Origin: Aliarcobacter butzleri
GTDB lineage: Bacteria; Campylobacterota; Campylobacteria; Campylobacterales; Arcobacteraceae
Direction: 5' to 3'
Length of the DNA stretch: 23,473 bases
NCBI GenBank assembly: GCA_012522985.1
Contig: JAAYJJ010000076.1
Span: 1 to 23,473, forward strand
The notes below the pieces were generated by a model, which worked only from the letters and a program-made list of their open reading frames with translations, was not told the origin of the DNA and ran no database searches. The position numbers and the translations under genes were made by a program. Of this stretch, positions 17,296 to 19,821 are shown one piece after another (positions within the stretch are counted from its first letter, which is position 1; each line of letters opens with the position of its first letter).

Positions 17296-17316
17296 AAGGC
17301 TAGCGAAGGTTTGACA

Positions 17317-19131
17317 ATGCAAAATTTAGAGATTAAAAACAAAACAACAGATGAGCTAAAAGATATAGCACAGACTTTAAGAGATAGGATTATAGAAGTT
17401 GTTAGCTGTAGTGGTGGACATTTTAGTTCTACTTTGGGGGCTGTTGAGCTTATTGTTGGGATGCATTATGTTTTTGATGTCGAAAATGATCCATTTATAT
17501 TTGATGTAAGCCATCAATGCTATGCTCATAAACTTCTTACAAATAGATGGGATGAGTTTGCTACTATTAGACAATTTGGCGGACTTAGTGGATTTACAAA
17601 GCCTAGTGAAAGTAGTGCTGATTATTTTGTAGCTGGACATAGTTCTACATCTATTTCACTTGCTGTTGGAGCTGCAAAAGCTTTTAGACTTAAAAAAGAG
17701 TCCAAAATACCAGTTGTTATGATAGGTGATGGGAGTATGAGTGCTGGTATGGTATATGAAGCACTAAACGAACTAGGTGATATTAAACTACCAGTTGTGA
17801 TCATATTAAATGACAATGAAATGAGCATAGCCAAACCAATAGGAGCTATAAGTAAGCATTTAAGCAAACTTCTTGCTGGTAAAACCTACCAAAATTTCAA
17901 AGAGATAGTTGATGGATTTTTGAAAAAAAACTTCCCTGATGGAACTACTTATCTAGCCAAAAGATTTGAAGAAAGCCTCAAGCTTATCACCCCTGGGATA
18001 CTCTTTGAAGAGCTAGGACTTGACTATATAGGACCTATTGATGGGCATGATATAGAAGAAGTTATAGAGACTTTACAAATAGCAAAGCAGATGAAAAAAC
18101 CAGTAATTGTTCATGCCAAAACCATCAAAGGCAAAGGCTACAAAATAGCCGAAGGCTGTCATGAACAGTGGCATGGTGTAGGACCTTTTTGTATAGAAAC
18201 TGGTGAGTTTGTCAAAAAATCAGGCTCAAAAAGTGCAACTTTGGTCTTTAGTGATAAGCTTTTAGAACTTGCAAAAGAGCATGAAAACATTGTAGGTGTA
18301 ACAGCAGCTATGCCAAGTGGAACTGGTATGGATCAGCTAATCTATCACTACCCAGATAGATTTTGGGATGTAGCAATAGCAGAACAACACGCCGTAACAT
18401 CTATGGCTGCTATGGCAAAAGAGGGATTTAAGCCATTTATTACTATCTATTCTACATTTTTACAAAGAGGATTTGATCAAATAGTCCATGATGTATGCTT
18501 GATGGATTTGCCAGTTGTTTTTGCTATAGATAGAGCTGGTATTGTAGGTAACGATGGTGAGACTCATCAAGGAGCTTATGATATCTCATTTTTAAGGTTT
18601 ATTCCAAATATGACTCTTTTTGCTCCTAGAGATGATAAGACTTTAGAGCTAGGACTAGAGTTTGCTTATAAGTGCAAGACTCCTTGTGCTATAAGATATC
18701 CTAGAGGATCTTTTGCAAAGCTTGATTTTAAGCCTAGTACTTTTGAGCTTGGTAAAAGTGAACTTTTACAAGAAAGCAGTAGTGATATTTTGTTTATTGG
18801 ATATGGTAAAGGAGTCTCAAGAGCTATAGAAACATCATCATATTTAGATGATAAAGTTGCTATTTTGGACTTGAGATTTGTAAAGCCACTTGATGAGCAG
18901 ATGCTATTAAGCCTTAGCCAAAAATATAAAACTTGGTATGTTTTTAGTGATTCAGCAAAGCAAGGTGGTGTTGCTAGTGCTATATTGGAGTTTTTAAGTC
19001 AAGAAAAGATTAGTGATATAAATATCACATCTTTTGAGTATGAAGATAGCTTTATCACTCATGGTGAAACTAGTGATGTAGAGTATAGCTTAGAGCTTCA
19101 TCCAAAACAACTTGCTAAAAAGATAAAATAG
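17317..19131 (+). CDS. dxs: 1-deoxy-D-xylulose-5-phosphate synthase
   Basis: Thiamine diphosphate enzyme that condenses pyruvate and glyceraldehyde 3-phosphate, the first step of the MEP isoprenoid pathway. ATG 17317 is preferred over in-frame TTG 17311 because GAAGG at 17305-17309 is seven bases from the ATG and only one from the TTG. The product has 604 residues, near the usual 620. Signatures are DVSHQCYAHKLLT, VAGHSSTSIS, the ThDP-binding GDGSMSAGM...LNDNEMSI (from about residue 137), and the catalytic-Glu motif IAEQHAVT (about 353-360). The C-terminal transketolase domain is complete. It closes the aroQ-dxs run and is followed by the repeat-rich gap at 19132-19461. Confidence 0.97.
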   Translation: MQNLEIKNKTTDELKDIAQTLRDRIIEVVSCSGGHFSSTLGAVELIVGMHYVFDVENDPFIFDVSHQCYAHKLLTNRWDEFATIRQFGGLSGFTKPSESSADYFVAGHSSTSISLAVGAAKAFRLKKESKIPVVMIGDGSMSAGMVYEALNELGDIKLPVVIILNDNEMSIAKPIGAISKHLSKLLAGKTYQNFKEIVDGFLKKNFPDGTTYLAKRFEESLKLITPGILFEELGLDYIGPIDGHDIEEVIETLQIAKQMKKPVIVHAKTIKGKGYKIAEGCHEQWHGVGPFCIETGEFVKKSGSKSATLVFSDKLLELAKEHENIVGVTAAMPSGTGMDQLIYHYPDRFWDVAIAEQHAVTSMAAMAKEGFKPFITIYSTFLQRGFDQIVHDVCLMDLPVVFAIDRAGIVGNDGETHQGAYDISFLRFIPNMTLFAPRDDKTLELGLEFAYKCKTPCAIRYPRGSFAKLDFKPSTFELGKSELLQESSSDILFIGYGKGVSRAIETSSYLDDKVAILDLRFVKPLDEQMLLSLSQKYKTWYVFSDSAKQGGVASAILEFLSQEKISDINITSFEYEDSFITHGETSDVEYSLELHPKQLAKKIK

Positions 19132-19135
19132 TTTT

Positions 19136-19184
19136 TAGTCTATAGTCTATAGTTATTAGTAAGTGGTGAATAGTGATTGGTACT
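19136..19184 (+). repeat. Seven tandem degenerate heptamers TRGTNNN
   Basis: Beginning four bases after the dxs stop, the sequence divides without gaps into TAGTCTA, TAGTCTA, TAGTTAT, TAGTAAG, TGGTGAA, TAGTGAT and TGGTACT. Positions 1, 3 and 4 are invariant, position 2 is A or G, and positions 5-7 vary. The complementary strand reads NNNACYA. A shorter version follows the methyltransferase gene at 2016-2047. Seven units in one register are unlikely to be chance. Confidence 0.65.
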
Positions 19185-19186
19185 TT

Positions 19187-19209
19187 GGAAGTGAGGTTTC
19201 AACCTCACC
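19187..19209 (+). repeat. REP-like hairpin element, copy 1
   Basis: GGAA, then an 8-bp perfect stem GTGAGGTT/AACCTCAC with a two-base TC nominal loop, then C. The motif RATTCAAAAAA follows directly and is shared with copy 3, making a 34-bp near-identical unit. The GGAAG foot beside a short perfect hairpin recalls REP elements, which have a conserved GTAG/GGAG foot. Confidence 0.75.
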
Positions 19210-19314
19210 GATTCAAAAAAGTATAAATTGATATTTAAGAATGAGTGACATTACTTTTGCTAGGATGATGAGCTTTTAATAGCTTTAAAAATGTAGGACT
19301 AGTTTTAGTTTTTT

Positions 19315-19337
19315 GGTGACAATAAATTGTCACTTCC
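19315..19337 (-). repeat. REP-like hairpin element, copy 2 (inverted)
   Basis: On the minus strand it reads GGAA, then stem GTGACAAT/ATTGTCAC with a TT loop, then C. It has the same length and the same outer bases (GGAAGTGA and TCACC) as copy 1. The inner stem is different, and each change is balanced by the pairing base. It lies 26 bases before copy 3 in the opposite direction. Confidence 0.7.
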
Positions 19338-19363
19338 TAAAGAGAAAGTTTATTTACTATGGT

Positions 19364-19386
19364 GGAAGTAAGGTTTCAACCTTACC
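19364..19386 (+). repeat. REP-like hairpin element, copy 3
   Basis: GGAA, then stem GTAAGGTT/AACCTTAC with the same TC loop as copy 1, then C and the same ATTCAAAAAA tail. It differs from copy 1 in the stem by one G-to-A and the partner C-to-T, a compensated pair change. Confidence 0.75.
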
Positions 19387-19461
19387 AATTCAAAAAAACA
19401 TTACTGAAGCTGATTGTTAGCAAATCTATAAACCACTAACAAAATAATAACAAGCTATATA

Positions 19462-19821
19462 TCACTTATTATCCAAAACAACTGCTACAACAGCTATTGC
19501 AAAGCCACCATCATGTGCTATTGATAAAGATATGGATTTGATATTAAACTTCTTTTTTAAATGCGGAGTTAGCACAATATAGGGTTGATTTTTGCTAGTT
19601 TTAGCTATAAATATATCCAAAAAGCTAAGCTCAGCCCCTATCCCACAACCAAGAGCCTTACTAAAAGCCTCTTTTGCAGCCCAAAAACCAGCAGCTGTTG
19701 AGCTACTTTTAATAAGCTCTATTTCACTCTCATTTAGATATCTTTTATAAGCTTTATCACCAAACTTTTCAAAAAGCCTTTCTATTCTTGAGATTACTGT
19801 TATATCAGTGCCTATTAACAC
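19462..19821 (-). CDS. acpS: Holo-[acyl-carrier-protein] synthase
   Basis: Transfers the 4'-phosphopantetheine group of CoA to apo-ACP, activating fatty acid synthesis. It has 119 residues, the usual AcpS size. The Mg-binding residues are Asp6 in IGTDI and Glu51 in WAAKEAFSKALG. The C-terminal SLSIAHDGGFAIAVV block is typical. Its start lies inside the end of ruvX (17-base overlap), so it is the last gene of the metF-ruvX-acpS unit. It links functionally with coaX at the start of the window, since CoA is its substrate, though the two are not neighbours. Confidence 0.95.
   Translation of the reverse strand: MLIGTDITVISRIERLFEKFGDKAYKRYLNESEIELIKSSSTAAGFWAAKEAFSKALGCGIGAELSFLDIFIAKTSKNQPYIVLTPHLKKKFNIKSISLSIAHDGGFAIAVVAVVLDNK

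Follow-up and report, generated by a model that had tools for sequence, protein, structure and literature searches.

Three hairpins between dxs and acpS

The window, that is, the whole 23,473-nt stretch of Aliarcobacter butzleri DNA that was analysed, contains a pair of convergent genes, dxs on the forward strand (17311–19131; Pfam DXP_synthase_N, 2.8e-100) and a gene for an acpS-like phosphopantetheinyl transferase on the reverse strand (19462–19821; Pfam ACPS, 6.3e-16). By pattern search and placement, the gap between them holds a BIME-like cluster of three hairpins in + − + order (19187–19386). Copy 1 (19187–19209; hairpin 19187–19208 plus a C; forward strand) has the foot GGAA, the stem GTGAGGT/ACCTCAC and the loop TTCA. 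Copy 2 (19315–19337; hairpin 19316–19337 plus a C; reverse strand) carries the same foot with the stem GTGACAA/TTGTCAC and the loop TTTA, and copy 3 (19364–19386; hairpin 19364–19385 plus a C; forward strand) combines GGAA with the stem GTAAGGT/ACCTTAC and the loop TTCA. The 22-nt sequence of copy 1 was found again elsewhere in the host and in other genomes, and an Rfam scan of the window returned no family over its gathering score.

A preliminary description, made from the letters of the window, had placed three elements with the outer bases GGAAGTRA...TYACC at these positions, and both the window sequence and the pattern search agree with it. It was also correct that copies 1 and 3, which have the inner stem GGT/ACC in common, differ by one G-C to A-T change of a stem pair, and that copy 2 is inverted, with an inner stem of its own (CAA/TTG) but the same length and foot. 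Its 8-bp stem holds if the outer T and A of the loop are counted as paired, leaving a 2-nt loop; otherwise the stem has 7 bp and the loop is TTYA. Of the GGAAG foot that it proposed, GGAA is retained and the following G is better read as the first stem base, because both the fourth foot base and the start of the stem vary beside the REP-associated tyrosine transposases (RAYTs) described below.

In relatives, acpS was located in all eight cases, and dxs lies near it in only one of them (locus L272 of genome G005), where the dxs-like stretch stands at a contig end and continues in one frame into unrelated sequence. A usable empty site is therefore absent. With regard to the junction itself (19131–19462), dxs was not found beside acpS in the loci of three genus mates, so that the convergent dxs/acpS junction with its hairpins may be a site of rearrangement.

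A genome-wide hairpin family

The host assembly (1.59 Mb in 216 contigs, 95.7% complete) was searched with the strict pattern GGAAGTRA-NNN-TTYA-NNN-TYAC, using the reversed pattern as a control. The strict pattern gave 60 matches (31 and 29 on the two strands) against none for the control (0 and 0), and a loose pattern gave 71 (39 and 32) against 2 (1 and 1). Furthermore, 155,645 bases of host regions chosen for their matches contain 60 perfect GGAA hairpins, and each of 20 dinucleotide shuffles contained none. The genome-wide search proposed in the preliminary description thus yielded a many-copy family, and these counts contradict both a pattern limited to the one locus and a copy number at the level of shuffled sequence. 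The three hairpins are confirmed as real and as members of a genome-wide family.

A whole-genome search with no foot imposed returned 47 matches on each strand, compared with 15 and 12 for the control. Within the regions chosen for GGAAG matches, 67 perfect TTYA hairpins were found in this foot-free manner, with the foot GGAA in 60, GGAG in 4 and another in 3; the characteristic tag is accordingly GGAA (60/67), not GTAG or GT[AG]G. All four GGAG-footed hairpins in these regions have the stem GTGAGGT. Among the 63 host copies, selected for the foot GGAAG and for 6 or more paired positions out of 7 in the stem, the inner stems are GGT (16), CAT (10), GAC (10), CAA (10), CAC (4) and GAT (4), together with seven others that occur once or twice each, one of them with a mismatch. 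The outer stem is GTGA in 47, GTAA in 13 and GTGG in 3, and the loop is TTCA in 48, TTTA in 13 and different in 2. The flanks are also biased: position −2 is T in 46 of 61 cases, −1 is A or T in 60 of 61 and +1 is C in 55 of 61. The repeat unit consists of a GGAA foot, 7 bp of stem and a loop reading TTYA.

Several local arrangements were observed along the way. At four places (host contigs C16, 585–656 and 2918–2985; C51, 4921–5010; C183, 8893–8935) a GGAG-footed GTGAGGT hairpin stands inverted directly after a GGAA hairpin, and in three of them another GGAA hairpin then comes. On C26 (7068–7217) an inverted hairpin pair occurs twice, 101 bases apart, while C97 holds two copies of an identical 28-base stretch of hairpin plus flanks (594–621 and 2772–2799), which suggests a duplicated stretch near REP copies.

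Pairing across the family was assessed by pattern search and pair counts in place of a covariance model. In the 59 strict host matches examined, the free NNN triplets are complementary in 57, with pairing not imposed and about 1 in 64 expected for each. This unselected count complements a pair count based on 25 distinct rows, the majority of which had been preselected for pairing; there, pairing is seen in 98.9% of cells, 5 of the 7 stem pairs vary on both sides, and double changes affect 39 cells. The covariation score of the 25 rows was reached by 0 of 500 shuffles, and two of the five measures were weak, the number of both-side-changed pairs being reached in 9 of 500 shuffles and that of further pair types in 446 of 500. 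Compensated stem changes, noted earlier for three copies, therefore extend across the family. The preliminary description had taken the kept pairing to imply selection for the hairpin; the compensation stands, but alone it is no proof of selection on each copy, since hairpin-templated correction, or the spread of several subfamilies that were perfect beforehand, would look identical.

None of the 63 copies lies inside an ORF of at least 90 aa, though 88% of the regions is coding, and 31 of 36 neighbours less than 300 bases apart are inverted. The proposed count of intergenic copies thus came out as expected, with alternating orientation in addition. The features by which REPs and BIMEs are recognised are found in the host: a many-copy short palindrome, extragenic position, alternating clusters and stems kept through compensated changes.

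Outside the host, the strict pattern has no match in any of three genus mates, two of which are 86% complete, and occurs 12 times in a genome of a different family (G043). Any pattern match was seen in 37 of 398 genomes of the order, 16 of which were judged to carry the perfect 7-bp hairpin. A stem-restricted pattern matched 87 stretches of named genomes; among the 80 listed, 65 are from Campylobacterota and 15 from others, namely Marithrix, Thiomargarita, other Gammaproteobacteria including Methylococcales, Ghiorsea and one Aminicenantes MAG. One scan of viral contigs with a stem-restricted pattern gave no stretch. In a genome of the host's family (G139), the 600-base stretch round one match is identical to Arcobacter cryaerophilus LMG 9065.

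Transposases flanked by the same hairpin design

In Sulfurimonas sp. RIFOXYB12_FULL_35_9 (locus L175; G227:C8), the gene for P0001, a Y1 protein of 172 aa, has GGAA-GTGAGGT-TTTA-ACCTCAC copies on either side, a sequence also present in the host, and inverted GGAA-NCGAGGT hairpins lie about 10 bases from these copies. P0001 and five relatives all exceed the Pfam Y1_Tnp cut-off (6/6). NCBIfam REP_Tyr_transpos is the best match for four of four clade proteins, yet at scores under its cut-off (58.7–72.2 vs 80 bits). Against the sequences of solved structures, P0001 matched seven, among them TnpArep (4er8, E 6.6e-6), and it has the Y1 HUH domain related to TnpAREP by which a RAYT is recognised.

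The RAYTs of this clade are about 175 aa long. Relatives of P0001 at E ≤1e-20 occur in 22 of 398 genomes of the order; at E 0.001, 137 genomes match, mostly partially and with other Y1 classes. Five genomes have both perfect hairpins and a member of the P0001 clade, out of 16 with the former and 22 with the latter among the 398 (Fisher p 0.0009, with related genomes treated as independent). At ≤1e-30, a profile built from 17 clade proteins (A1) matched in two families, in 27 of 228 genomes of the first and 23 of 175 of the second. With no foot imposed, a search up to 700 bases from 60 distinct clade RAYTs for TTYA hairpins with a perfect 7-bp stem containing two or more G or C gave 43 hairpins at 15 of the 60 loci. 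Their feet are GGAG (16), GGAA (12), GGGG (9), GGAT (5) and GGGA (1), all of the form GG[A/G]N. The cut-out RAYT flanks contained 42 such hairpins, whereas 50 dinucleotide shuffles averaged 0.04, and 22 control loci contained none. No 7-bp TTYA hairpin lies within 700 bases of the remaining 45 clade RAYTs, a few of which have other hairpins. In the host's own genus, a P0001-clade RAYT (L226, genome G003) lies near GGAAC-CCCAG... hairpins, with a GGAA-like foot and a different stem.

RAYT genes flanked by such hairpins were thus seen in relatives, with the same sequence beside P0001 and the same design at the 15 clade loci; none was seen in the host assembly, where searches for Y1_Tnp, P0001-like and clade-profile matches found none. 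Contig ends fall within 500 bases of hairpins in 8 of 23 cases against a simulated mean of 3.8 (p 0.02), so a RAYT gene lying between hairpin clusters may be missed in the assembly. In the 44 hairpin-bearing genome entries (41 distinct genomes and three repeats), which left G227, G160 and G346 with their clade members outside the set, the clade was detected in 5 at E <1e-50; copy-rich G043 and G410–G413 had no match at that threshold.

Other Y1 types were also surveyed. Scanned with no foot imposed, none of 47 Y1 loci of hairpin-bearing genomes is directly flanked by GGAA-GTRA hairpins. Five of them (L255, L257, L263, L354 and L363, two being near-copies) have GTAG-foot, TTYA-loop hairpins beside RAYTs with the motif WQK[KR][YF]YEH[TA]IR. 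Since these GTAG-foot RAYTs share the TTYA loop with the GG[A/G]N-foot clade, the foot tracks RAYT type in this order and the loop does not. The genomes of the five GTAG loci also contain GGAA hairpins.

Two further loci of the 47 (L342 and L343, G418), from Candidatus Thiomargarita nelsonii, contain Y1 genes with the motif WWNYWDYCPRD, and long arrays of longer TTYA hairpins stand beside these genes; the array stems are AGTCCAAAGC and TCCAAGA/TCCAAAA, preceded by GG or GGAG-like bases, and the two loci perhaps represent a third RAYT type with GGA-like feet. A 262-aa Y1 protein of G043 was rejected as a flanked partner, lying about 1.4 kb from a hairpin. Of 30 Y1 loci (L239–L268), 2 (one genome, a duplicate entry) have a single GGAAG hairpin, far from the Y1 gene. 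In G023, from the host's family, 17 Y1_Tnp matches, many of equal score, indicate a multi-copy IS200-like element.

Comparison with known REP systems

The REP of Haemophilus influenzae, GTAGGGTGGGCTTYAGCCCACC, resembles the host unit in its 4-nt foot, 7-bp stem, TTYA loop and length of 22 nt and is paired with a RAYT, but its foot is GTAG where the host has GGAA (Nunvar et al., 2010; PMC2817692). The Marinomonas REPtron Mb likewise has a TTTA loop and loop and stem rules like those of the host; unlike the host, its GTAG foot stands two bases off a 5-bp stem (Corneloup et al., 2021; PMC8266576). The GTAG/CGTC REP superfamilies share with the host short stem-loops, a fixed unpaired end tag and complementary stem changes, and also form head-head and tail-tail dimers, with many TY loops, whereas their tags are GTAG or CGTC instead of GGAA; the string GGAAG is absent from the main text of that account (Di Nocera et al., 2013; PMC3733652). 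The TnpAREP/RAYT subclasses resemble the P0001 clade in a Y1 HUH domain, NH.H, a tyrosine motif of the YI.NN[P/A] kind and multi-copy flanking hairpins; their canonical foot is GT[AG]G, with CnGA in class 3 and atypical structures in subclass 2.6 (Quentin et al., 2018; PMC6006769). Judged by its motif, the P0001 clade looks nearest to subclass 2.4 (YI.NNP).

REPs, BIMEs, TTYA loops, complementary stem changes, tags other than GTAG (CGTC, CnGA) and the partnership with RAYTs are already known. The small dispersed repeats of Nostoc, associated with Elhai and co-workers (2008), are reportedly also short and presumed mobile, with compensated hairpin stems, and differ in sequence and host. No GGAN foot paired with a separate RAYT clade was encountered in the parts consulted of PMC6006769, PMC8266576, PMC3733652 and PMC2817692 or in literature searches, the supplements and most subscription papers being outside their reach. 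Because the cited REP literature is built mainly on a GTAG-type foot, GTAG-based searches miss the GGAN family.

Proposed foot recognition and mechanism

Residues of the E. coli protein that contact GTAG include W94, Q95, E100, H101 and R104 (Quentin et al., 2018; PMC6006769). Matched by eye, the counterpart of this foot-contact stretch in the P0001 clade is mostly FW[A/E/Q]..Y[YF]DK.[IV]R. Where the fourth foot base is mostly G, 6 of 7 RAYTs have E directly after W; where it is A or T, all 8 have A or Q there. The G-foot RAYTs include two near-copies and form a single clade (97/97), so that the association between foot base and residue counts as one event. Moreover, in the E. coli protein the last two bases of the foot are reported to be contacted by C-terminal residues (Corneloup et al., 2021; PMC8266576). 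That disfavours a direct reading of the foot by the residue following W.

In a TTTA-loop REP with a GTAG foot, positions 1, 2 and 4 of the loop are required while position 3 tolerates change; mismatching the stem is harmful, its sequence has little weight, and an altered foot shifts the cut site (Corneloup et al., 2021; PMC8266576). The rules seen in the host (TTYA loop, paired stems, free inner sequence and fixed foot) agree with this biochemistry, and several inner stems under one foot and loop are what would be expected if stem sequence is hardly read. In the mechanism proposed here, the GGAA strand, when single-stranded, would fold into the 7-bp hairpin, and a RAYT of the P0001 clade (Y1/HUH) would recognise the TTYA loop of the folded strand in a strand-specific manner, needing a paired stem and not one fixed stem sequence. 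The foot would guide the cut site, predicted by a pairing rule published for one GTAG system as TT (or TC) for GGAA, CT for GGAG and AT for GGAT. The RAYT would then move or copy hairpins, singly or as inverted pairs, into intergenic DNA, and the host copies may be relics or be served by a RAYT absent from the assembly.

Origin of the host copies

The earlier REP/BIME-like reading with a RAYT link is supported by a many-copy, intergenic, alternating and covarying family and by RAYTs flanked by the same design in relatives. The hairpins are probably REP elements in a BIME-like cluster, a variant in which GGAA replaces GTAG as the foot, proposed to be mobilised by a RAYT; the host copies are perhaps relics or RAYT-served. 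Chance palindromes or an assembly artefact could be considered given the shortness of the elements, but 60 matches against none in the control, none in 20 shuffles and the same hairpin in many independent records make this extremely improbable. Integron attC, DGR hairpin and DNA-uptake readings were provisionally set aside on length and layout. It is also quite unlikely that the hairpins are immobile now and were selected by the host as RNA or DNA structures, such as mRNA 3'-end stabilisers, bidirectional terminators or nucleoid/gyrase sites between convergent genes. Such a role would suit their position: of the distinct hairpin gaps that have a gene on either side, 12 of 20 lie between convergent genes, whereas this holds for 20 of 126 gene junctions across those regions. 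Other REPs, too, are described as RNA elements located after genes (Di Nocera et al., 2013; PMC3733652). Yet few copies have at least 6 T in the 10 nt past the stem, namely 2 of 63 when the GGAA strand is read and 6 of 63 for the opposite strand, a search for terminator-like sites at 18900–19700 found none, and the unpaired foot, the strand-specific TTYA loop and the same design beside RAYTs would be left unaccounted for.

Spread by an enzyme outside the P0001 clade, for example another Y1 class, would make the RAYT-flanking hairpins a look-alike family; in several genomes rich in hairpins, the only Y1 proteins are of other types or there is no match, but with none of the 47 other Y1/RAYT loci directly flanked by GGAA-GTRA hairpins and five carrying GTAG instead, we regard this as unlikely. 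A special case of the REP explanation, differing from it in present activity, is that the host copies are relics of a RAYT lost in the lineage, now decaying or kept by hairpin-templated correction. This has a real, if less than even, chance of being right. It accords with the lack of a RAYT match in the host assembly and of the strict hairpin in the three genus mates (two at 86% completeness), while the uniformity of the copies, 57 of 59 being perfectly paired, suggests recent spread, and the tendency of contigs to break near hairpins means that a RAYT could drop out of the assembly.

Biological significance

Returning to the REP reading, we tentatively suggest, at somewhat below even confidence, that GGAN-foot REPs and their RAYTs may be a recoded REP system beside the GTAG one, in which the TTYA loop rule and the stem rule (7 bp of largely free sequence) are common to both and the foot, the cut site and the reading residues changed together. 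The GGAN family offers a natural comparison within one order, where loop and stem length are equal, and the foot and the transposase residues linked to foot contact differ. In this way, the choice of hairpin and cut site by a RAYT becomes testable with a few proteins and oligonucleotides. If the suggestion is true, the recoded GGAN system would represent a readable and swappable specificity code.
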